From Spirochaetota bacterium (GTDB taxonomy: Bacteria; Spirochaetota; UBA4802; JAFGJZ01): a stretch of 64,000 bases of DNA. The stretch lies in assembly GCA_027858855.1 (NCBI GenBank), contig JAQIBV010000009.1, positions 1 through 64,000 on the forward strand, read 5' to 3'. How positions within the stretch are numbered: position 1 is the first letter of the stretch; the number at the start of each line of letters is the position of its first letter. Made by a program: the position numbers and the translations under genes. Under the pieces are notes generated by a model. The model did no database searches. It saw nothing but the letters and a program-made list of their open reading frames with translations, and was not told where the DNA came from. Shown here one piece after another: positions 10,708 through 23,087 of the stretch.

Positions 10708-12201
10708 ATGACTAATTCAACTAAACAAAAGATTGAGTGCAGTACAACCGATATAAGCGGTTCAATAAAACGAAAAGATGAGTATTATATTCAGTTTTCA
10801 TATTTTTCACGAGATGTAGAGATTTTTTTCCAAAAACTTTTATCCCGAACACTTGCATCATATGATATTATCTATTTAAAGGGTGCCTTAGTCACCATAC
10901 TTAAGGAATTAATAACAAATGCAACAAAAGCCAATATAAAAAGACTCTATTTCAATGAAAAAGGCCTGGATATCAACCTGAAAACCGATTATATAACAGG
11001 CATGGACGATTTTAAAGAGAAGTGCCTCTATGAAGAGGCGCCAATTCTTGAAAAACTTGAAAAAAGTAACTATCGGGTAAGATTACTTTTTTCCCCTAAC
11101 GGCGACAAACTTTCCATCAAAGTAATTAACAATATTCGCATTGTACCTGAAGAAATTAAAAAAATTGAGGCCCGTATTTCGAAAGCCTATAAATATGATG
11201 ATATAACTGACGCATTTAACGATGTACTCGATGACTCAGAGGGTGCAGGGTTAGGCCTTATAATGGCAATGTTGATATTCAAGAATAGCGGTTTTGCCAA
11301 AGAAGATTTTTCTATCAACTCTTCTAAAAATCAGACAATCTGCACCATTAATATATCAAATACCGGCAGAACCATTATGGCCAGAGATATTGCGAAAGAG
11401 ATCATCGAGGATATTGAATATCTGCCCTCTTTTCCTGAAAATATCACCAGGCTTACAGAACTATGTGACACTCCCGACGCAACCATCGTCGAAATATCAG
11501 ATTATGTGAAAAAAGACCCGTCTTTGGCAACTTCGATCCTGAAACAGGCAAATTCAGTGGGATACCTCACCTCAAACAAGGCTATCACTATTGAAGAGTC
11601 AATCATGAAAATAGGTCTGGCCGGGATAAAAGCCCTTGCCATTGCCGCCAGTATCTCTAGAATAATTAATCAACGCTATTCACAATATAGGGAACTATGG
11701 GAAACTTCTTATAAAAAGGCATTCTATGCCTATCAAATTGCCATACAACTTAAAGATCGTAAACTTTCTGAAAAAGCATACCTCGCATCTCTCATTTCGA
11801 AGGTAGGTGAAATCGCTCTACTTTCTGCAAAACAGGTATCTGTCGAGCGGATAAACAAAATAGCCGGTATCAAAAACATTACCCATACAGACCTGCTTGA
11901 AGAAATAACACTGGGAATCAGCCATCCGACACTCAGTTCAATGATAACTGAAAAGTGGAATTTTGATAACGAGCTCACTCTCTCCATTAAATTCTATTTA
12001 CGTCCGCATATGGCTCCCCCTGAAGTACAAGAACTTGTCTATATAATTTACGTTGCCCATGTTCTTACAGAGCTTGAGGATCGCAAAATCAGGTACCAGT
12101 CGCTTGATTTCGATGTCTTAAAGTTTTTCAACCTGGAAACTGAAGCAGAGTTTAACAAACTGCATTCAATACTCCAACAGGCCTATACGGCAAATACATA
12201 A
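10708..12201 (+). CDS. HATPase-like domain fused to an HDOD domain
   Basis: This is a 497-residue two-domain signalling protein. Residues about 25-215 resemble a GHKL/histidine-kinase ATPase domain: the N-box KELITNATKAN (66-76, with E67 and N71) and the glycine lid EGAGLGL (178-184). The usual DxGxG box between them is replaced by a segment of the type INNIRIVPEE. There is no dimerisation/phospho-acceptor helix. Residues about 230-430 are an HDOD domain (LPSFPENITRL, VKKDPSLATSILKQANS), with the HD metal motif replaced by SKVG. It is likely a soluble sensor or adaptor, not a classical kinase. A stand-alone paralogue of the N-terminal domain is encoded at 28867-29511 and a second HDOD protein at 46767-47648. 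Its biological role is unknown. Confidence 0.7.
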   Translation: MTNSTKQKIECSTTDISGSIKRKDEYYIQFSYFSRDVEIFFQKLLSRTLASYDIIYLKGALVTILKELITNATKANIKRLYFNEKGLDINLKTDYITGMDDFKEKCLYEEAPILEKLEKSNYRVRLLFSPNGDKLSIKVINNIRIVPEEIKKIEARISKAYKYDDITDAFNDVLDDSEGAGLGLIMAMLIFKNSGFAKEDFSINSSKNQTICTINISNTGRTIMARDIAKEIIEDIEYLPSFPENITRLTELCDTPDATIVEISDYVKKDPSLATSILKQANSVGYLTSNKAITIEESIMKIGLAGIKALAIAASISRIINQRYSQYRELWETSYKKAFYAYQIAIQLKDRKLSEKAYLASLISKVGEIALLSAKQVSVERINKIAGIKNITHTDLLEEITLGISHPTLSSMITEKWNFDNELTLSIKFYLRPHMAPPEVQELVYIIYVAHVLTELEDRKIRYQSLDFDVLKFFNLETEAEFNKLHSILQQAYTANT

Positions 12202-12375: not shown

Positions 12376-13275
12376 ATGTATTTCCAGGACCTGATCGCGC
12401 AACTTAACTCATTCTGGAGCAAACAAGGATGCATAACCATTCAAGGATATGACACCGAAGTAGGCGCCGGAACCTTCAATCCGGGAACTTTTTTACGGGC
12501 TCTTGGGCCAGAACCATGGAATGTCTCTTATGTTGAACCATCTCGCCGCCCTACTGACGGTAGATACGGAGATAATCCAAACAGGCTACAACACTATTAC
12601 CAATACCAGGTCATAATGAAGCCATCACCTGAAAACATACAGGATCTGTATCTTGAATCACTGATTGCACTTGGATTGAACATTAAAGAACATGACGTTC
12701 GTTTCGTTGAAGATGACTGGGAATCGCCAACACTTGGCGCTGCAGGTCTTGGCTGGGAAGTATGGCTTGATGGAATGGAAATAACACAATTCACCTATTT
12801 TCAGCTATGTGGCAGCATTGAACTTTCTCCAATTCCGGTAGAGATAACCTACGGTCTTGAAAGGATTTGCATGTATCTTCAGGGCGTTAACAGCGTATAT
12901 GACATAAAATGGAACGAATCACTCCTTTATGGAGACGTTCATCACAGAAGTGAGTATGAGTTTTCTCATTACAACTTCAACATATCTGACACATCACTAT
13001 ATTTTAAGCTTTTTGATCTCTATGAAAAAGAATGCCTCTCAACTCTTGAAAAAAATGAAGAAATTGTTCTGCCAGCTTACGATTTTGTCTTGAAATGTTC
13101 TCACAGCTTTAATATGTTAGACGCACGCGGAGCAATTTCGGTTACCGAACGGGTTGGATATATTACCCGAGTTCGTAATCTTGCACGAAAATGTGCAGAA
13201 AGATATGTACAGATTCGTGAAATAATGGGGTATCCTCTCCTTGAAAAACAGAAAAATAGCGAAGGATGCAAATAA
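12376..13275 (+). CDS. glyQ: Glycyl-tRNA synthetase alpha subunit
   Basis: This is the catalytic (class II aminoacyl-tRNA synthetase) subunit of the bacterial alpha2-beta2 glycyl-tRNA synthetase. The 299-residue length is normal, and the characteristic [18 protein letters not shown] (about 55-72), [20 protein letters not shown] and CYLALAxx-type helices at the end are readable. AAGGATT precedes the ATG. The partner beta subunit (glyS), often directly downstream, is absent from the window; instead the gene overlaps nrnA by 35 bp. The 174-bp leader contains TTGACC but no good -10, and I see no T-box signature (no AGGGTGG-type core). Confidence 0.97.
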
Positions 13276-14248
13276 AATCTATGATGAACTCGATACGTTC
13301 ATCTCTTCACATCAGAAGTTCTTCATTACCACACATGAGAGCCCGGATGGCGATGGTTTGGGTGCCGAGATTGCATTCAGAGAATATCTGACATCCTTAA
13401 ACAAGACCGTTTATATTGTAAACGGAGACCCCCTTCCAACAAAATACGCCTATCTGGATCCCGACAATCTTATTTTAGCTGCCGATTCGTTAACACTTCC
13501 TGAAGACTACACAGATTTTTCATTAATTATTATCGATACAAACACATTTAGTAACACAGGGGGGACTTATACTCTTTGCCGGGACTGGATCAAGGATTTT
13601 TTTATTATTGATCATCATGAAGGAAACTCAGATGTTTTTGCGCCTAACCTTGTATTGGTTCACGCTTCGTCGGTTTCAGAAATAATAGCTCACTTCCTTT
13701 ATAGAAACAATTTCACACCGTCTAAACAGGCGGCAACATCTCTTTATACAGGAATACTCTTTGATACAGGCGGATTCCGCTACTCCAAAACATCTTCAGA
13801 AACCTTCTCCATAATTTCGTGGCTGGTAAGTCATGGAGCTGATCCAACACAAATTTATGAACTAATATACGAAAATAATGAATTACCTACTCTTCTGCTG
13901 AAAGCAAAAATGCTTGCCTCAATTGAATCTCATCATCAGGGTAAATTACTATACATGGAGTTAACCCCGCAAATGCTCGAAGAGACCGGAGCAGAGTTTT
14001 CAGAGGGAGAACTTAATATTAATATACCGCTTACTATCAAAGGAGTCGAAATCAGTGTACTCTTAAAACAGGACATAGAGGGGCAACTTAAAGTAAGCAT
14101 GCGATCAAAAGGCGATATCGACGTATCAATAATTGCAATAAGTCGGAATGGCGGCGGTCATAAAAATGCAGCCGGATTTAAATCCAATCTTTCACTCGCT
14201 GATACAAAAAAACAGGTGCTCTCTGATATTGAAAGATTTTTTTTCTAA
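13241..14248 (+). CDS. nrnA: DHH/DHHA1 phosphoesterase (NrnA-like oligoribonuclease/pAp phosphatase)
   Basis: This family degrades 2-5 nt RNA fragments and/or 3'-phosphoadenosine 5'-phosphate. In 335 residues it shows the DHH metal motifs [10 protein letters not shown] (about 36-45), IIIDTN and FIIDHHEGN (about 121-129), then a linker and the DHHA1 domain ending in [10 protein letters not shown]. The only in-frame start early enough is TTG at 13241, inside the end of glyQ; an ATGATG about 40 bases further on is out of frame. Translation is therefore probably coupled to glyQ. The family is clear; whether RNA or pAp is the main substrate cannot be read from sequence. Confidence 0.88.
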
Positions 14249-14271: not shown

Positions 14272-15165
14272 TCAGCGAAGTAGATCTACTATATCCGATA
14301 TCACTCTATCAGGAAAATTCCGCATTTTATCATTAACTTTTTTTGATCCTGTCCCTGCATTGATTTTAAACTTAATGAAACCGTATCCTCCTTCAAAATA
14401 GGGGGGGAACTCAAGATCTGCTCCAAACTCTAAGACACGCTTTTTTAATTCAGAAGCTTCCCTCTCTTTTTTAGTGAACTCAGGATAACGAAGTTCCATA
14501 ACTCTTTCAGTCAATTCTGTCTCACCTTCAAAAGGCATGTCAGACATTATTTCGGTAATTAGTCGCGAATCAATGTGAGCTATATCTGATAAAAACTGTA
14601 TGTAGCTTCGCATGGAGTTCTGTTTTGGATTAAATTTAGAGGCAATCTGTGTAATCAAACTACGTACTGTACTAATTTGATTCAGATAATCCTTTATAAT
14701 CTTGACCGAAATATTTTTACGTATGGCATACATTAAAAAATTATTAGTTTCCACATTAATACTGTTTAAAAATAGAGCAACAACAGAGTCCGGTAATTTG
14801 AGTTCTTCAGTAAAAAAACTCTTGTTATCATCCAGATTAGAGTAATCTCTGCATAAATAAAGTGAAATCAGCTTGTCAGAAACAGTTAATCTTTCTTCGC
14901 TGGCAAGGGTAATGAGCTTCATTCGAAGGTCGAAAAAATTGAAAGTCGAAATGATGGTAACAGGAATTTTTGACATATTAAGCTTTTTGGCTATCTTGAG
15001 TCTGCCAGATCCACTACATACTATAAGCTTACCTCCGGTATTTATACATAATACCGGCTTTAAAATGCCATGCTTTTTTATAGAAGCTTCAAGACTTTGC
15101 AGGAGTGGTTTTTGATTAAGATAATCAGGAATAATAACTGAGGTGGGTGTAACAGTCGGATTCAT
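14272..15165 (-). CDS. ParB/Srx-fold protein, function unknown
   Basis: The N-terminal part (about residues 10-75) has the ParB/sulfiredoxin pattern: a basic helix (SLEASIKKHGI), LKPVLCI, then VCSGSGRLKIAKKL (49-62) and IPVTII. The classic GERR or GxRR box is GSGR here. The middle is predominantly helical and could hold a DNA-binding region. The C-terminal 60 residues carry a strand-rich segment (FGADLEFPPYFEGGYGFIKF). At 297 residues it is ParB-sized, but it is not next to a canonical parA, rsmG or mnmG. ATG 15165 is preferred over an in-frame TTG six bases earlier that abuts the preceding stop. It lies six bases after a TPR-Mrr gene, so they are co-transcribed. A chromosome-partition ParB is possible but less likely; ParB-like kinases share this fold. 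Confidence 0.55.
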   Translation of the reverse strand: MNPTVTPTSVIIPDYLNQKPLLQSLEASIKKHGILKPVLCINTGGKLIVCSGSGRLKIAKKLNMSKIPVTIISTFNFFDLRMKLITLASEERLTVSDKLISLYLCRDYSNLDDNKSFFTEELKLPDSVVALFLNSINVETNNFLMYAIRKNISVKIIKDYLNQISTVRSLITQIASKFNPKQNSMRSYIQFLSDIAHIDSRLITEIMSDMPFEGETELTERVMELRYPEFTKKEREASELKKRVLEFGADLEFPPYFEGGYGFIKFKINAGTGSKKVNDKMRNFPDRVISDIVDLLR

Positions 15166-15171
15166 ATTCAA

Positions 15172-16731
15172 TTATATTAACCCATTCAGGTACTTGTTTA
15201 TTTCGTTTGGCAATACTACATCTATTTTACTCAACTGTTCAAGGCTTGTCATAGCACCATCTGTAAGTTCAGCTGTTGTTATAAATAGTCCCTTCTGTGC
15301 TTTCAACTCATTAACCTGTTGAGCAAAATTTCTTAGGGGAATTTCACCTACATGCATCGATGTCCACCTTCGTACAGAAACGAATGTACTCTCTTCGGTT
15401 CCCTTTTTCGTAGCAAAATAATCTACACCGTCATGTTCCCGATAAGTTGGCATAATTTTGTCTACTGAATAACCGAGTTTTTGAACAAGCCTGTTAGATA
15501 TCATTCTAAAAGTTTCAACATCAAGCTTAACAAAGGTATCAACGTTATTTACAGACTCTTTCCTGTTTCCCGAATCTGTGGATTGTGTATCATCAGACTT
15601 AATACGCGTATTGACAGTCATATACATTTTTATATCGAACTGATATTCCGCTTTCATACCGCAAATATTCCAAAGAAAATTTTTCGGAATAAAGTTACTT
15701 ACCCATCCATCAACATAGTCATAGATTGTATCATCAAAAGTTGTATCACTGCGCTCCATTTCACGCTGAAGAGTCATAAGCATGTTCTGAATATCGCGAT
15801 ATCCTCTTTTTTCTGTAGAGAGCCGTTTCCAGTAAACCTCTGCCTGGCGAATCTTATCAGCACGAACGCAGGCAAAGCCTATGTCATAAAGAGCAATGTA
15901 CAATTCATCAACCATGGAATGATTTTGAGTAAATTCCACAAGCAATTCAAATTTTTTAATTGAGGTCTCATATTTTTTTAGAAGAAGCAAAATCAGTGCC
16001 TCAAGACGAAGAGCAATAAAGGTAACCTCTTTATCAGAAGCAATGGCGGCCAGTTTAGATGCATAATTTTGTGCCTTGCTGTAATCCTTCTTACGCATTA
16101 ATGACAGCAGCAATGCAAGATTAGTTATTTCTGAATCAGGTTTCTTTTCAATCGCAGATGCAAAATATTCTACACATTCATTAATTTTTTGATTTTGATA
16201 TGCACAAATTCCGGCTCCAAAATATATCTCGTAATCGGGTTTGGTAGAGCGCATAAGTTTATCAAAATAGCGATGTGCAAAGTCATACTCCGCCTGACCT
16301 AAAGAGATAAAGGCAATATGATAGAGTGATTCACTATCGGCTGGATGACTTTGATTTATGGTCATATACATTTCAAAGGTCTTTTCTATCTCTTCACGAA
16401 AATAGTAGATCTTTGCAAGATTTTTCTGGATTACTTTTTTTTCAACTTCAAAATTGAACTTATTCTGATCAAGCAATTTCTCAAAAAGAAGTGCGGCCTG
16501 ATCAAAATCACCAGTATCAAGATATATAGTTGCGAGTCGATACTGTATCACAAAATCGTAGGGATTCTTATCCAGGAGTTTACGGTATTCAAGTATCGCC
16601 TCATCGAACTTTTTGTTTTTAAGTAGTTCCTGAGCACGATTTCGCGGGTCAAGTTTGGGAGCTAAAATAAAGAAATAATAGGAGGCAATCAGAGCAAGAA
16701 ACAACAAGATTACGAAATAAAGTAGTATCAT
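15172..16731 (-). CDS. Membrane-anchored TPR protein with degenerate Mrr-like C-terminal domain
   Basis: The 519 residues start with one transmembrane helix (about 2-24). Roughly eight TPR-type helical pairs fill 30-330, and the tail at about 403-519 resembles the Mrr/PD-(D/E)XK nuclease fold: FRMISNRLVQKLGY, DGVDYFA (434-440), VSVRRW (451-456) and KGLFITTAELTDGA (480-493). The catalytic aspartate position (D437) is kept, but the Q/ExK lysine position is arginine (S452-V453-R454), so cleavage is doubtful. The protein is paralogous to the one at 19536-20894, with the same TM-TPR-linker-Mrr order and a shared YRDIQ/FRDVEQ linker. The soluble part presumably faces the cytoplasm. An extended -10 promoter lies about 80 bp upstream. 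Confidence 0.65.
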   Translation of the reverse strand: MILLYFVILLFLALIASYYFFILAPKLDPRNRAQELLKNKKFDEAILEYRKLLDKNPYDFVIQYRLATIYLDTGDFDQAALLFEKLLDQNKFNFEVEKKVIQKNLAKIYYFREEIEKTFEMYMTINQSHPADSESLYHIAFISLGQAEYDFAHRYFDKLMRSTKPDYEIYFGAGICAYQNQKINECVEYFASAIEKKPDSEITNLALLLSLMRKKDYSKAQNYASKLAAIASDKEVTFIALRLEALILLLLKKYETSIKKFELLVEFTQNHSMVDELYIALYDIGFACVRADKIRQAEVYWKRLSTEKRGYRDIQNMLMTLQREMERSDTTFDDTIYDYVDGWVSNFIPKNFLWNICGMKAEYQFDIKMYMTVNTRIKSDDTQSTDSGNRKESVNNVDTFVKLDVETFRMISNRLVQKLGYSVDKIMPTYREHDGVDYFATKKGTEESTFVSVRRWTSMHVGEIPLRNFAQQVNELKAQKGLFITTAELTDGAMTSLEQLSKIDVVLPNEINKYLNGLI

Positions 16732-16810
16732 CGGAATTCCTGATAGTAAAGAAGCTAAACAGTATAATTGGAAATCTCATTGAAAAAACATCATTACAAT
16801 CAAAAAAAAT

Positions 16811-16838
16811 ATTATAACAGATTAATAATGATTTTGAA
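16811..16838 (-). promoter_or_regulatory. Extended -10 promoter for the TPR-Mrr/ParB-like pair
   Basis: TGTTATAAT on the minus strand (16811-16819) is a perfect extended -10. TTCAAA (16833-16838), 16 bp upstream, is a weak -35. It would give the TPR-Mrr and ParB-like genes a transcript separate from the greA-led operon. Confidence 0.6.
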
Positions 16839-16913
16839 GTATTTCCCCAACACTAAATTTTTACCAACAATTATGCTTTAACTTAAAATTTATCATAATT
16901 TGAGCTTATATAA

Positions 16914-16939
16914 TTAAAGGGCGCATACGCACCCTTTAA
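16914..16939 (-). terminator. Terminator-like hairpin after the STAS gene
   Basis: TTAAAGGG and CCCTTTAA form an 8-bp stem, extended inwards by GC/GC after one mismatch. On the minus strand it is followed by an AT-rich stretch (TTATATAA). It starts about 30 bases after the STAS stop. A 12-bp palindrome TTAGTTAACTAA lies between (16951-16962). Confidence 0.55.
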
Positions 16940-16969
16940 AATAAAGTACGTTAGTTAACTAAATTCTGT

Positions 16970-17305
16970 CTATACTGAAGCAATAGCTTCCTCTTCGGAA
17001 TCGTATATATCGAACATGTCCATCAACTCAACAACTTCGAAGATTTTTTTTACGGCGCTATTAATGTTACATAATTTCAGTTGTTTCTGGTTATCGCGTA
17101 ATATCCTCATTGTAGATACAAAAATACGCAAACCCGAACTACTCATATATTCAACATCTTTTAAATCAAGAATAACATGCAAATCAGGGTTTTCTTTAAT
17201 CAACTGATTGATCTCTTTTTCAATATCAGCTGAAAGATGGACGTCAAGTCGACCAGATAAGTACATGACAATCGCATTATCCAGTTTTTTATTTTCTAAA
17301 TTCAT
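16970..17305 (-). CDS. STAS-domain anti-sigma factor antagonist (SpoIIAA/RsbV type)
   Basis: This 111-residue single STAS domain starts with VMYLSGRLDVHLSADIEK and has the phosphorylation loop MSSSGL, in which S57 just before G58 is at the position phosphorylated in SpoIIAA. Such proteins release a sigma factor or another target from an HATPase-type anti-sigma kinase. ATG 17305 is chosen because GGAGG stands directly in front of it; an upstream TTG is in frame but lacks a ribosome site. It is the last gene of the greA-led run, 90 bp after a membrane-protein gene, and is followed by a hairpin. No anti-sigma kinase is adjacent; the HATPase-like proteins at 10.7 and 28.9 kb are possible but unproven partners. 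Confidence 0.88.
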   Translation of the reverse strand: MNLENKKLDNAIVMYLSGRLDVHLSADIEKEINQLIKENPDLHVILDLKDVEYMSSSGLRIFVSTMRILRDNQKQLKLCNINSAVKKIFEVVELMDMFDIYDSEEEAIASV

Positions 17306-17395
17306 TAAATCCTCCGGAATCTTCAAAAAAGTATATCTGCTACTAAATCAGTCTACCAAAAACATCATACAGAAAAGCCCTGTGTTTCGTACAAT

Positions 17396-17833
17396 TCATC
17401 GATTAGGCCTCTTTTTTGTCAAGTATAAAGCTGTCATATTCAAAACAGCAATTCCCAAGAATATTAGCCCTATCATTAAAGTCGCGTTATAATTGCTGGT
17501 AAAAAAATGTTTCGTCATGTAAATTAAAAGAACTACTGGTAAAAAGACACCGTTAAAATAGATCAACTCTCGATACCGCTCAGGATCATATAATGGCAAA
17601 ATCATGGTACAACCAACAAATACAATAATAATAGAAAATGATTTCGAGAGCAGATAAAGAAGCATCAAATAATCATCAATACGGATCTGGTTAGCCCATT
17701 CTGTATTAAGAGGAATCTGGAAAACCGAACAAAAAAGATCGGGCTTAATAATGTACAGCCCACCCATAGCAATATAGACCAGACCGGTTAACAGAACGAA
17801 AACTTGCAATAAATTGATAAGCCCATTGCGCAT
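17396..17833 (-). CDS. Four-helix integral membrane protein, unknown
   Basis: I do not recognise the family. The 145 residues hold about four hydrophobic segments (near 7-27, 54-78, 90-107 and 118-138) with short polar links and a basic end (LTKKRPNR). There is no signal-peptide cleavage site. It lies 17 bp after the cNMP-MinD gene and 90 bp before the STAS gene in the same direction. It could be the membrane partner of the MinD-type ATPase, which is inference from position only. Confidence 0.6.
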   Translation of the reverse strand: MRNGLINLLQVFVLLTGLVYIAMGGLYIIKPDLFCSVFQIPLNTEWANQIRIDDYLMLLYLLSKSFSIIIVFVGCTMILPLYDPERYRELIYFNGVFLPVVLLIYMTKHFFTSNYNATLMIGLIFLGIAVLNMTALYLTKKRPNR

Positions 17834-17850
17834 AAAAATTGCTCCACTGT

Positions 17851-19536
17851 TTATTTAAAGATGGTTTGTGTATTATACAGATCCAGTAATGGCAGGTCAA
17901 TAATAAAATCACCTTTTGCTCGATTTACGTCACGCTGTCGTGCAAGAGAATCAAGAAAGCTGCCCTCTTTAAAAGGATAAGCAATAATTTCTGTCTCCAC
18001 AGTAACATGTTTAAAATCGGAAGCGTGCCTACGATACATTATATTTTTTTGCCCAGTATATGATGCAGAGAAGGGACGTCCGGCGATATAGTGCTTATGA
18101 AAATAGGGTTTTCTTGAAAAAGCGGCCGTCACTATATCTGCTATGGAACCGGTAGTGATCTGAAACAACCTACCTGCTTCCCCCGAAAGAATAGCACTCA
18201 TAGAAACAGGTAAATCCTCAAGGCGTGCTTTTCCGAATAACTTTTTAACATATGATTGAAAATAAGCAACATTATAGAGCCGCTCATCAGGAAAAACCAG
18301 CTTATAAAAGAGCTTATGGCGTGAAATATTAAAGAAATCATTCATTTGATCAGAAAAAGCGGAGCGGTCATTCAAAAAACTGTAGAGCGACATAAAGAAT
18401 ATTGAAAAGCCAGTACAGATAAAATGAGCCTTTGGATTATTTTCAAACAGTGTAACATAGGGAAGAGAACGATAGAAGCTAGATCCTAGAAAAAATGTCT
18501 GTTTTTTGTTAAAAATCTCAGAGATTTCCTTCAATTCTTCCAAATTGAGATTATCATCTGCAAGCACGGAGTCGGTTTTTTCAATAACGGGAAAATCTAC
18601 ACTGCACCCAGTGATAGAGTCACTAAACAGGTGATTACATACATGTATAACCTTTTGCCCCTCTTCAATAAATCGGTCAAACCATAGTGAAGCCGAACGC
18701 TTTTCATTTATGTTTTTACACACATTGAAGAGATAATCGCTATTTGCTATGACATCTTCTGAGAGGGATGCTGATGGGCCATCAATAATAATATAATCAA
18801 AATCAAAAGATGAATGTACTACTAGAGCGGCAAGAAGATCTCGGCTACTTTTTTCTTTTTCACCATTAGAAAAGTTTATTATAGAGAGTCCTTCATTAAC
18901 TGACACGAGATATTTATTTATGTCGAAGTTCTCTCGCAACTCCTTCATAACAATAGGAATTCCCTCTTCACAGGAAAAAAAAGAAGCGATACTCTTATGT
19001 GAACGTGATGCATCAATTAAAAGAACACGGTGTTGCTGCGACAGAAATGCTGCTAATACTGCTGAGAACAGAGTTTTGCCACTCTTAATTGATCCGGTTA
19101 CTCCAATTACAGCTAAATCTGTTAAGCGGGTTGAATAATTGTCTGGGGCAACCTCAATTCCATTATAAGAAATGGTCTGAAGATATCCCCGGATTTTTTT
19201 TATATCAGAAAGAAAATACATAAGCATTTTCTCGTCAATGATACGATAAATCAGACTATCTTCACTTATTAAAATATCATACCGTTCATTTGAGACTGCA
19301 AAAGGTAATCGTCCAAAACCATCACCTGCACGCAAAACCAGTGATTTGTGTACACCATCAAAAGAGACCGCAACGGAACCCGATTCAATATAATAATAGA
19401 AAATATTTTTTTCATTGATTGAGAGTTTCGCACCTTTTTTAAACAAAATTGGCTCGAAACGGGAAAGAAAGTCAGGTACTTCTCTTTTAAGAAGAAATGA
19501 AAAGATATGATTATCTGAAAAACCGGTAAAATCCAT
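17851..19536 (-). CDS. cNMP-binding-like, MinD/ParA-like ATPase and degenerate patatin fusion
   Basis: Three parts can be read in 561 residues. (1) About 1-120 is a cyclic-nucleotide-binding-like beta-roll (IESGSVAVSF, LRAGDGFGRLPF) without a clear phosphate-binding cassette. (2) About 140-335 is a SIMIBI ATPase: deviant Walker A VTGSIKSGKT with signature lysine K151 and K154, A' motif LLIDAS (D175), and Walker B YIIIDGP (D252). (3) About 345-520 aligns with patatin lipases: LGSSFYRS in place of LGGGGxRG, TGFSIF (S378) in place of GxSxG, and ARLEDLPVSMSAI followed by a GS-led helix. The catalytic Asp of DGG is not found. The order cNMP, ATPase-like region, patatin recalls NTE/PNPLA6 proteins, but here the P-loop is intact and the lipase is not. 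Its start overlaps the preceding TPR gene stop (TGATG), implying translational coupling. Confidence 0.62.
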   Translation of the reverse strand: MDFTGFSDNHIFSFLLKREVPDFLSRFEPILFKKGAKLSINEKNIFYYYIESGSVAVSFDGVHKSLVLRAGDGFGRLPFAVSNERYDILISEDSLIYRIIDEKMLMYFLSDIKKIRGYLQTISYNGIEVAPDNYSTRLTDLAVIGVTGSIKSGKTLFSAVLAAFLSQQHRVLLIDASRSHKSIASFFSCEEGIPIVMKELRENFDINKYLVSVNEGLSIINFSNGEKEKSSRDLLAALVVHSSFDFDYIIIDGPSASLSEDVIANSDYLFNVCKNINEKRSASLWFDRFIEEGQKVIHVCNHLFSDSITGCSVDFPVIEKTDSVLADDNLNLEELKEISEIFNKKQTFFLGSSFYRSLPYVTLFENNPKAHFICTGFSIFFMSLYSFLNDRSAFSDQMNDFFNISRHKLFYKLVFPDERLYNVAYFQSYVKKLFGKARLEDLPVSMSAILSGEAGRLFQITTGSIADIVTAAFSRKPYFHKHYIAGRPFSASYTGQKNIMYRRHASDFKHVTVETEIIAYPFKEGSFLDSLARQRDVNRAKGDFIIDLPLLDLYNTQTIFK

Positions 19537-20894
19537 CAGGATACTTTTTTTAACAACTCTATTAATTTGGATTTGGTAATAAGTTCAATAGGACGTGTAT
19601 TTGAATAGTCAATTGCACTTTGACCAAATTCACCTGTAGAGATGACCATAACCCTCTGTGCGTTTTTGGGTTTCATCATATCATAAAGATTACGCAAATA
19701 ACCATCAGAAATAACATTTGTAGTACGATAAACACGAATTATTCGATATACACGGCGTGTATTACGTCGATTATCCTCTTTTTCCACTGCGTAAATTTCG
19801 ATTTCACTGTCTTTAAGAACTTTTAGTTCCTGAACTTCGAAATTCATAGACTCTATCATCTTTCTTGAAAGATGTTCAAAATTTGAAAGCGAGGCAATCA
19901 TAAAGTCCTTAATTCTGTCATCCTGCCGGAATTCAGCATTCTGGCGAAGTTTCTGTTCCACATCGCGAAAATTTTTCTTCTGTTCATATATTTTTTCCCA
20001 ATGCTCAATTGCAGATTGAAGATCGCGCATCTTCTCGTGAGCAGATGCAAGAAAATAACGCATGTTTAACTCGGTATCACTTCCCTTGCGTGCTGTTCGC
20101 AATCCTTTATCAAATTCAATGATTGCCTTTGGATAATGCTCAATTTCAAGATAGCAACTACCCTTAGCCAGAAAACACTTTGATCGAATGTCTTCACTCT
20201 TCTGAGCAATTTCAAACTCTTTTACAGCCCACTCCACATCACCCTCAGCACGAAGTGCTAAGCCCAAAAAGTAATGCGCTTTAGAATTAGCGCTATCCAG
20301 TTTAATCGTATTCATGAATGCCTGTTTCGCATCTTTTGTGTTACCAGTTCTGTATTGGATCTGCCCTAAGTAATAGAAAATATCCGCCTGAGTCTGATTC
20401 AAGCTGGCAGCCTTTTTAAAATAATCGAGCGCCTTGTCAAAGACACCTGCAGTAAAAAAGAGATAGCCCAACCAATAATAGTTCTGGTAATTATTCGGAT
20501 CAATCTGAGTAAGGATCATGTACTCTTTTTTGGCATCATTTATCTTGTTTTGATTTTTATACAGGGTTGCAAGTTTATCGCGGACATCAACTTCATTTAC
20601 TTTTTCACTGTACAACCCCAGTTTGATCACCTGACGATACTCAAGAATTGCATACTGGAAATTTTTATCCATACGGTAGGCTTCACCAAGAAGGAAATGG
20701 GCATATACATTACGGTCATCAGCTGCAAGAATTTCATCCAGCTTGCGAATTGCAGACTTAAATTGTCCTTTTTTTATCAATTCGGCAATTTCATCAAGTT
20801 TTTTCGGAGAAAAATAGGTAGAAAAAACATATAACGCAAGAATCGTTACGACAATTATGATTAGAAAAACAATAATGTAGGTGATATAGGCCAT
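19536..20894 (-). CDS. Membrane-anchored TPR protein with degenerate Mrr-like tail (paralogue)
   Basis: The 452 residues begin with one transmembrane helix (about 5-26). At least seven TPR units (30-310) follow, and then an Mrr-like tail (336-452): NFEHLSRKMIESMNFEV, SEIEIYAV, YRIIRVYR, RVMVISTGEFGQSAIDY and PIELITKSKLIELL. That last segment matches the end of Mrr proteins (pI.LIdg..L..ll) especially well. The GxD aspartate is E366 and the Q/ExK triad is not preserved, so nuclease activity is unlikely. It shares architecture and the FRDVEQ linker with the protein at 15172-16731. It is located 18 bp after the coiled-coil gene and overlaps the cNMP-MinD gene by one base. A scaffold role at the inner membrane is inferred. 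Confidence 0.65.
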   Translation of the reverse strand: MAYITYIIVFLIIIVVTILALYVFSTYFSPKKLDEIAELIKKGQFKSAIRKLDEILAADDRNVYAHFLLGEAYRMDKNFQYAILEYRQVIKLGLYSEKVNEVDVRDKLATLYKNQNKINDAKKEYMILTQIDPNNYQNYYWLGYLFFTAGVFDKALDYFKKAASLNQTQADIFYYLGQIQYRTGNTKDAKQAFMNTIKLDSANSKAHYFLGLALRAEGDVEWAVKEFEIAQKSEDIRSKCFLAKGSCYLEIEHYPKAIIEFDKGLRTARKGSDTELNMRYFLASAHEKMRDLQSAIEHWEKIYEQKKNFRDVEQKLRQNAEFRQDDRIKDFMIASLSNFEHLSRKMIESMNFEVQELKVLKDSEIEIYAVEKEDNRRNTRRVYRIIRVYRTTNVISDGYLRNLYDMMKPKNAQRVMVISTGEFGQSAIDYSNTRPIELITKSKLIELLKKVS

Positions 20895-20912
20895 CAGCTG
20901 ATTATTTCCTTA

Positions 20913-21212
20913 TCAGGTAGTGATTTTATACTTATTATCGGTAAGTTCCCTGATTTTCGCAAGAACCTGTTTTTTCTCCTCATCACAAAGTTGGGCAACA
21001 CGTTCATTTGCCGAAATTGTCTCTTTAAAATCAATCATCTCGGATCTGGAATACTCAATAGCATTCTCGTACATCGAGACTATAGCCATTTGGGTAGAGA
21101 GTTCTTTTTCATTTAGACGTAATACCTGCTTATAACTCTCAATAACTTCAAGCAGTTGTCGATTGTCCTCTTCCAGCTTCTTTAAACGGGCCTGTATCTC
21201 TTCCTGTTCCAT
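20913..21212 (-). CDS. Small coiled-coil protein, unknown
   Basis: These 99 residues are almost entirely charged heptads (EEIQARLKKLEEDNRQLLE and onward), with no transmembrane segment, no cysteine pair and no enzyme motif. The protein probably forms a parallel or antiparallel coiled-coil dimer. GAGGCG precedes the ATG. It sits 6 bp after DUF1015 and 18 bp before the TPR-Mrr gene, inside the greA-led operon, so it may be a structural partner of the TPR proteins. No family name can be given. Confidence 0.7.
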   Translation of the reverse strand: MEQEEIQARLKKLEEDNRQLLEVIESYKQVLRLNEKELSTQMAIVSMYENAIEYSRSEMIDFKETISANERVAQLCDEEKKQVLAKIRELTDNKYKITT

Positions 21213-21218
21213 AACGCC

Positions 21219-22439
21219 TCACTTCTTAAATGAATGTATTACCATGCCACTACGCAACTTGGGTTCAAACCATGTTGATTTTGGTGGCATGACCAAACCA
21301 CTGTCAGACACCTCAATAAGCTGATTAATAGTAGTCGGATACATCGAAAAGGCAACCGCAAATTTTCCTGAATCTACTATTCTCTCTAACTCATCTGTTC
21401 CGCGTATTCCCCCGATAAAATCTATTCTTTCAGATACCCTCGGATTATCAATACCCAGCAAAGGAGAAAGAATCTCTTTCTGTAAAATCTGAACATCAAG
21501 CGATTCCACAGGATCAGTTGGTATTTCAAAAAGTGGAGTTAGCATATACCAGATAGAATCAATATACATTGCTACAGAGGTCGAAGCAAGAGGAGTTTTA
21601 TGTTTTGTCTCTTCAATTGAGTATTTTTTCGATAACTGTGTCATAAATTGTTCTTTTGTTAAAGAGTTAAGATCAGTGACAACACGGTTATAGGGTAGAA
21701 TATGAAGCTCCTCATCTGGGAAAATTACCGATAAAAAGTAATCAGAACCGTCTTTGACACCCTTTGCCGCACGTTCGCGGCCTACACGGGCAGCTGAGGC
21801 TGCACGATGATGACCATCAGCTATATAAAGCTCAAGAGAAGCAAACTCCCCGATTATTTCGCTAATTACCGAATCTTCGGATATTGCGCGAAAAGAGTGA
21901 TGCACACCATCACCAGAAACAAAATCATAGAGTGGTTTGTTTTGCAGAGCTTTCTCGAATTGATCGCGAAGATTTTGTTGTTGCTTATAAAGTAAAAACA
22001 CAGGACCAGTTTGGGCGTTTAGCTTATCAAGATGTCGAATTCTGTCTTTCTCTTTTGCTTCACGGGTTAACTCATGTTTTTTTACAATGCCTGAATCATA
22101 ATCCTTTACGGACACAAGAGTAACAAGTCCGGTTTGAGAACGACCGTTCATAGTTAAGGTATATAGATAAAGTTGATCACTCTCATCCTGAATTAAATAC
22201 TCCTTTTCAAGAAAATGAGCAAGATTTTCAGCTGCCTTTTCATAAACCTCTTCACTGTAAGGATCTATATCAATCGGAAGATCAATTTCAGGTTTAGTTA
22301 TATGATAAAAGTTATACTTATTATCTGCTGCGATTAATCGAGCCTCTTCGCTATTACAAACATCATAAGGCAATTCACTCAACTTCTCAACAATGTCAGC
22401 TTGCGGTCGTAAACCTCTAAATGCCTTTATTAATGCCAT
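21219..22439 (-). CDS. DUF1015 family protein
   Basis: The start ALIKAFRGLRPQADIVEKL followed by LPYDVCNSEEAR, FYHITKPEIDLP, IADGHHRAASAAR and SVIFPDEELHILPYNRVV is the DUF1015 pattern. The 406-residue length is normal for the family. The motif DGHHR (about residues 208-212) resembles the G-x-H-R box of ParB-fold proteins, but no reaction can be assigned here from sequence. In some genomes DUF1015 lies near serine or D-3-phosphoglycerate metabolism; that is not the case here. It is 2 bp after greA and 6 bp before the coiled-coil gene, so part of one transcript. Confidence 0.85.
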   Translation of the reverse strand: MALIKAFRGLRPQADIVEKLSELPYDVCNSEEARLIAADNKYNFYHITKPEIDLPIDIDPYSEEVYEKAAENLAHFLEKEYLIQDESDQLYLYTLTMNGRSQTGLVTLVSVKDYDSGIVKKHELTREAKEKDRIRHLDKLNAQTGPVFLLYKQQQNLRDQFEKALQNKPLYDFVSGDGVHHSFRAISEDSVISEIIGEFASLELYIADGHHRAASAARVGRERAAKGVKDGSDYFLSVIFPDEELHILPYNRVVTDLNSLTKEQFMTQLSKKYSIEETKHKTPLASTSVAMYIDSIWYMLTPLFEIPTDPVESLDVQILQKEILSPLLGIDNPRVSERIDFIGGIRGTDELERIVDSGKFAVAFSMYPTTINQLIEVSDSGLVMPPKSTWFEPKLRSGMVIHSFKK

Positions 22440-22441
22440 AA

Positions 22442-22942
22442 CTACTCTTCTCCCTCTACCGAAAATTCGGAACCATGAATGGTTTTAAGTTTTAATAATT
22501 TAAATTTTTTCACACCCACAGGAATGGTTACCTCAACAACATCGCCCACTTTTTTATAGGCCAAGGCTTGTCCATAAGGTGTGCTGAAGGCAATTTTATT
22601 CTCAGTCGGATTACTCTCCGCCTCTGTTACAAAAACAAAGGTCAAACGCATTGATGAGTCCTGATCTGCTATTGTAACTTCTGATCCAAAACCAACCATT
22701 CCGTCCGGTATTTCTTCAATTTTAACACTTGCTATTTTGGCTAATTGATCACTCAGTTGGGCAATTTTTGCTTGAACAAAACCCTGTCGTTCGCGTGCTG
22801 CATGATAATCAGCATTTTCTTTTAAGTCACCATGTTCACGTGCTTCAGCTATTTTAAGCGGCAATTCAACTTTGAACTCATGCTTTAATGCGTCAAGCTC
22901 ATCACGAATTTCCAGCTTTCTTTTTTCGATATCAATACCCAT
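22442..22942 (-). CDS. greA: Transcript cleavage factor GreA
   Basis: GreA stimulates backtracked RNA polymerase to cut its nascent transcript. The 166-residue protein has the N-terminal coiled-coil with the acidic tip GDLKENADYHAARERQ (about 38-53), then the FKBP-like C-terminal domain with STPYGQALAYKKVGD. Start 22942 has AGAGG in front; an ATG 12 bp upstream is possible. It leads the run of genes that continues with DUF1015, the coiled-coil and the TPR/MinD proteins. A near-consensus promoter lies about 145 bp upstream, leaving an unusually long leader. GreA rather than GreB is favoured by its short form. Confidence 0.92.
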   Translation of the reverse strand: MGIDIEKRKLEIRDELDALKHEFKVELPLKIAEAREHGDLKENADYHAARERQGFVQAKIAQLSDQLAKIASVKIEEIPDGMVGFGSEVTIADQDSSMRLTFVFVTEAESNPTENKIAFSTPYGQALAYKKVGDVVEVTIPVGVKKFKLLKLKTIHGSEFSVEGEE

Positions 22943-23087
22943 AAAGCCTCTCATTATTACTTTTATAAGAAGTCTTCCTAAAATTTTTACACGTTAAAGC
23001 TTCAGTTACACACTGCAAAATAAAACTGAAAAGATAATGTGTGAAATAATTGCCGGAATCAGCTTTGGAAGTACATCCGCAAAGGAT

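Follow-up and report, generated by a model that had tools for sequence, protein, structure and literature searches.

A candidate STAS-linked signalling cluster conserved across an order of spirochaetes

The locus and its genes

The window analysed here, a 64,000-nucleotide stretch of a Spirochaetota contig, carries nine neighbouring genes on its minus strand. A preliminary description had listed these nine open reading frames, and all nine were confirmed. The run opens with greA (22442..22954), which encodes the transcript cleavage factor with its N- and C-terminal Pfam GreA_GreB domains and is a neighbour outside the core, followed by two accessory genes, one for a DUF1015 protein (21219..22439; PF06245, 2.2e-98) and one for a 99-amino-acid coiled-coil protein (20913..21212). 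Next come T1 (19536..20894), M (17851..19536), F (17396..17833) and the STAS gene S (16970..17305) and, beyond a longer gap, T2 (15172..16731) and P (14272..15171). Pfam recognised GreA, DUF1015, STAS (5e-22) and, in both T1 and T2, TPR and Mrr_cat domains, with a weak match to ParB_N in P. The DUF1015 protein has a conserved DGHHR motif; membership of the ParB/Srx group was considered on this motif alone, and was rejected as profile searches gave no support.

Spacing is tight from greA to F, with gaps of 2 bp (greA-DUF1015), 6 bp (DUF1015-coiled coil) and 18 bp (coiled coil-T1), a 1-bp overlap of T1 and M, and 17 bp between M and F. The 90 bp previously given between F and the STAS gene holds for an ATG start at 17305 and shrinks to 69 bp with a longer TTG open reading frame reaching 17326; the ATG is the probable start, since a GGAGG Shine-Dalgarno sequence precedes it. 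T2 and P abut exactly (0 bp). The packing first described therefore stands for greA to F and for T2/P; it had overlooked a gap of 238 bp between the STAS gene and T2. This gap holds an 11-bp hairpin (16914..16939, minus strand) with a terminator-like stem and a weak U-tail (z -2.0), at the site where relatives carry a further gene, H. Because of the gap and the hairpin after STAS, T2-P may form a transcript separate from greA-STAS in the window's genome, which counts against a single module. A promoter scan returned sites no more numerous than in shuffled sequences.

On the far side of P, and convergent on it, lie glyQ (glycyl-tRNA synthetase alpha) and a DHH nanoRNase-like gene (12376-14248), both conserved at this place in families f1 to f6 of the order. 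Beside them, a gene for an HDOD protein (10708-12201) shows the same synteny in f1 to f6; Pfam matched its HDOD domain only, and its N-terminal half contains sequences resembling the N and G boxes of HATPases (ELITNATKAN, GAGLGL).

Conservation across the order

We define the core as T1, M, F, STAS, T2 and P. The order has seven families, of which f1 is that of the window, and nearly all named relatives are metagenome-assembled genomes of uncultured spirochaetes. A search for related loci with the window's M alone gave no matches, M being too diverged, and the relatives were obtained by whole-genome search. Wherever the contig of an order locus spans the core (30 loci, the window included), the arrangement T1-M-F-STAS-(H)-T2-P is collinear and on one strand; H is present in 27 of these and absent from three, all of family f1. 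Such loci come from six of the seven families (f1, f2, f3, f4, f6 and f7). Six other loci were examined. Four of them (G029, G041, G030, G007) run into the end of their contig, and in the remaining two the block is truly split. In f5 a break between M and F divides it (G011; G007 and G016 fit the layout), with both halves persisting as conserved blocks, and in G037 about 40 kb separate T2-P from STAS-H. Scattering among relatives, raised in the preliminary description as a possibility to be checked, was seen nowhere except in these splits. As collinearity holds in every core-spanning locus and persists down to about 20% protein identity, the cluster is beyond chance.

Individual genes are similarly widespread. 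Of the 46 order genomes, whole-genome searches found M in 44 and T2 in 41 (30/30 among high-quality genomes), and F was present in 33 of the 35 examined loci. The upstream genes are less constant: greA occurs in 28/35 loci at a variable distance from T1, DUF1015 in 16/35, and the coiled coil in about half of the order loci. Throughout f7, the largest family, neither DUF1015 nor the coiled coil stands beside T1. Ahead of T1, the coiled coil is also found outside the order, in family f22 and similar loci. Thus the set as first drawn keeps T1, M, F, STAS, T2 and P, while greA, DUF1015 and the coiled coil fall outside the conserved core and H has to be added.

H encodes about 730-756 amino acids between STAS and T2 and was detected in 38 of 46 order genomes. 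It is absent from all four f1 genomes, so that the window holds a reduced version of the cluster, and the other four genomes lacking it are 69-76% complete. Loss of H in f1 with retention of the rest counts against a module. The window's M shares about 18-24% identity with that of other order families and its P 16-23%, as compared with about 50-57% for T1, whose mean column identity is 71%. The divergence of the window's M and P accompanies the loss of H.

Gene trees broadly follow the GTDB families, and the cluster is vertically inherited, since the trees keep families mostly monophyletic. An alternative is a conserved neighbourhood without shared function, made up of old housekeeping genes held together by slow rearrangement. 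The glyQ-DHH-HDOD genes illustrate the point: they are equally syntenic beside P in f1 to f6 yet clearly unrelated, so synteny alone is no proof of function, and wherever the block splits every part of it is retained. Two observations speak for more than slow rearrangement. Median gaps in the order loci are small (T1-M 12 bp, STAS-H 13 bp, T2-P 2 bp) and overlaps occur; moreover, T1-M and T1-STAS(-H) linkages recur elsewhere with different flanks. On balance we consider a neighbourhood devoid of common function unlikely.

Degenerate enzymes and membrane proteins

M had been described as a MinD/ParA-type ATPase with a cNMP-like domain. Both a P-loop fold and a CNBD-like domain are indeed present, and a third, patatin-like domain had been missed. 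A profile of M matched PDB sequences of ParA (1.5e-10), cAMP-binding domains (4.5e-8) and the patatin PlpD (1.5e-5); Pfam detected cNMP_binding in 24 of 27 orthologues and Patatin in 11. The AlphaFold model of the window's M (pLDDT 82) matches MinD, CAP and patatin structures, with the P-loop domain nearest to ParA/MinD/Wzc folds and recognised as a ParA/MinD fold by Foldseek through 1hyq and 3k9g. M also aligns end to end with intact CNBD-patatin proteins of other spirochaete families (488 columns, E 2e-26).

The motifs of these three domains have fared differently. In the 27 M sequences, GK[ST] is kept in 24 and the Walker B aspartate in all 27, whereas the ParA deviant Walker A (KGGxGKT) could not be traced: the signature lysine position holds R, P, T or S, and GG is absent. 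At the patatin active site, the oxyanion loop (GGGxRG) was found in 0/27, the GxSxG serine in 15/27 and the DG[GA] aspartate in 0/27. Of the residues of the cyclic-nucleotide phosphate-binding cassette, Glu occurs in 4/27 and the Arg position is unconserved. The intact relatives (L210, L211, L212, L213, L215) show the converse pattern, keeping GGGGAR, GTSMG and DGG and lacking a GKT Walker A. The end-to-end alignment, the loss of patatin motifs and the retention of Walker A and B identify M as an NTE-type protein that has degenerated, and set it apart from canonical MinD/ParA. Its domain order is that of NTE/PNPLA6-type lysophospholipases (CNBD-P-loop-patatin), from whose active relatives it differs in having an intact P-loop and an apparently dead patatin site; a search of the window's genome with the Pfam profile NTE_Ploop found nothing. 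M would offer a clear example of an enzyme of the NTE type whose lipase activity was lost and whose nucleotide-binding domain was kept, and could help in understanding the middle domain of these proteins, about which little is known.

These results bear on the earlier suggestion that the locus recycles DNA-partition parts, and on the wider idea of a positioning or partition apparatus of MinD/ParA-ParB type. Such an apparatus would draw on the resemblance of the M P-loop to ParA/MinD/Wzc folds and on P, whose N-terminal domain is ParB-like as first reported: a profile of P matched ParB, Noc and SerK structures in the PDB, from 2.7e-11 (ParB) to 6e-4, although the window's P alone reached ParB_N in Pfam only below the cut-off. 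P has a ParB/sulfiredoxin-like N-terminal domain of the ParB/Noc/Srx/SerK superfamily and a C-terminal part without a match. However, M lacks both the signature lysine and GG and has an NTE relative over its entire length, and P evolves fast and is not adjacent to M. The ParB-like domain of P is all that remains of the recycling argument, and a partition apparatus appears very unlikely.

T1 and T2 are paralogues, as had been stated, each with one N-terminal transmembrane segment (residues 7-25 of T1 in a TM scan), a TPR array and a C-terminal Mrr_cat-like domain (Pfam 9.5e-14 in T1, 4e-14 in T2). Read from alignments, T1 is devoid of both PD-(D/E)xK catalytic residues; in T2 Asp437 is invariant and the QxK lysine is replaced by Arg in 24/24. 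Both Mrr domains look dead, and solved-structure searches with them returned nothing firm. A weak charge bias suggests that the TPR arrays are probably cytoplasmic. LapB/YciM proteins are membrane-anchored TPR adaptors sharing the single N-terminal transmembrane segment and the TPR array with T1 and T2; homology is seen in the TPR, and a rubredoxin domain there contrasts with the C-terminal pseudo-Mrr here. Assignment of T1 and T2 to FlcA or to magnetosome MamA-type TPR proteins was rejected, as generic TPR scores were below the cut-off. F, predicted from hydropathy to have about four transmembrane segments, matched nothing in Pfam or the PDB.

Mrr, patatin, CNBD and TPR modules are domain types typical of defence systems, and the T1 C-terminus matches the PADLOC candidate PDC-S02 (1.8e-7), so that an anti-phage or conflict system had to be weighed. 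PADLOC gave no other match of weight, though, and the effector active sites seem dead. The cluster is vertically inherited and present in virtually every member of the order, instead of showing the patchy, mobile distribution of such systems. We regard a defence role as highly improbable.

STAS linkage and a candidate module

The STAS protein contains an SSSGL phospho-site motif, shared by 32 of 33 orthologues, and matches TIGR00377 (anti-sigma antagonist) at 3e-24. In family f5 (L197, L198) another STAS gene lies upstream of F. The phospho-site recalls SpoIIE-STAS-RsbW partner-switching modules, and other spirochaetes possess related clusters of the form T1-SpoIIE/HATPase-STAS-H and T1-...-SpoIIE-STAS-RsbW. 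In contrast, no kinase or phosphatase was found in the window's cluster, where M and F occupy that place. Partner switching is heavily used in the window's genome, in which a whole-genome search revealed 20 SpoIIE-type phosphatase domains.

Instead of partner switching, the set could regulate lipid or glycan metabolism, with H as an active enzyme, M as a lipid sensor and an Mla-like STAS protein. The NTE ancestry of M is in line with this, as is the model of H (pLDDT 89), which predicts the six-hairpin fold of glycosidases, with GH94 disaccharide phosphorylases as its nearest match; the shared six-hairpin barrel with beta-sandwich (Foldseek E 3e-16) is a likeness of the modelled fold, at about 10% identity and a TM of about 0.55, and H matched no Pfam family. 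The STAS protein itself resembles MlaB weakly (0.001), but it fits anti-sigma antagonists far better and keeps the phospho-site. Mla transporter genes are missing from the cluster and H is lost in f1, making such a metabolic complex distinctly unlikely.

Beyond the order, T1-like proteins were found at E<=1e-30 in 239 of 345 sampled spirochaete genomes, a count in which some weak hits, mainly in f15, could represent different TPR proteins. An M-like protein comes after T1 in f22, f38 and f41. In f34 the genes that follow T1 encode a GAF-SpoIIE-HATPase protein, STAS and sometimes H; the f34 STAS scores 151-162 bits against the order STAS profile, compared with 53-77 for other STAS proteins. Family f24 carries T1-phosphoesterase-DUF4032-like-SpoIIE-STAS-RsbW, and in eight further families T1 precedes a phosphoesterase and a DUF4032-like protein. 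The strongest argument for T1 and STAS working together is this recurrence of their linkage outside the order. STAS-linked signalling is the closest known kind of system for the set, and the only such link to find support.

We tentatively interpret the cluster, with a confidence slightly short of even, as a vertically inherited, order-wide, membrane-tethered, STAS-linked signalling module. T1 and T2 would act as membrane-anchored scaffolds whose dead Mrr-fold ends serve binding. M, a putative pseudoenzyme with an intact P-loop, would probably be an adaptor that is switched by nucleotide and sits on T1 and F at the membrane, its state passed to, or gated by, STAS through serine phosphorylation. 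M and F would stand where f34 carries the kinase/phosphatase protein, and the kinases and phosphatases for STAS would be encoded elsewhere in the genome. H, where kept, may bind or process glycan, and P could provide a ParB-like ligand- or DNA-binding output. By analogy with NTE and LapB, the most likely role would be sensing of envelope or lipid/glycan status.

A broader proposal, which we hold to be somewhat unlikely, is that the T1 scaffold goes back to an ancestor of most spirochaetes and that an undescribed regulatory complex largely of retired enzymes (pseudo-NTE, two pseudo-Mrr and possibly a pseudo-glycosidase) couples membrane/glycan state to STAS phospho-switching. T1 is in any case a widely conserved uncharacterised spirochaete protein; should it prove to organise STAS signalling as a scaffold, a regulatory pathway spanning the phylum would become open to test.

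The preliminary description is thus partly supported. It is fair to read the set as an undescribed membrane system, as the genes are conserved together and two or three of the proteins are membrane-anchored, and greA alone among the components has a well-known unrelated function; the partition-parts reading was not supported. Literature on DUF1015, spirochaete STAS/TPR systems and bacterial NTE, with most subscription papers outside reach, did not describe the set, which is a credible undescribed regulatory system.

Two further features of T1 neighbourhoods were recorded. The DUF4032-like treponemal neighbour was considered as ParB-like because of a match to P spanning 41 columns at 29% probability; it matched no solved structure, and the candidate, suggestive only, was set aside. 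Upstream of T1, many spirochaete families (L156-L184) carry two TPR genes, often divergent, one of them encoding about 620-670 amino acids.
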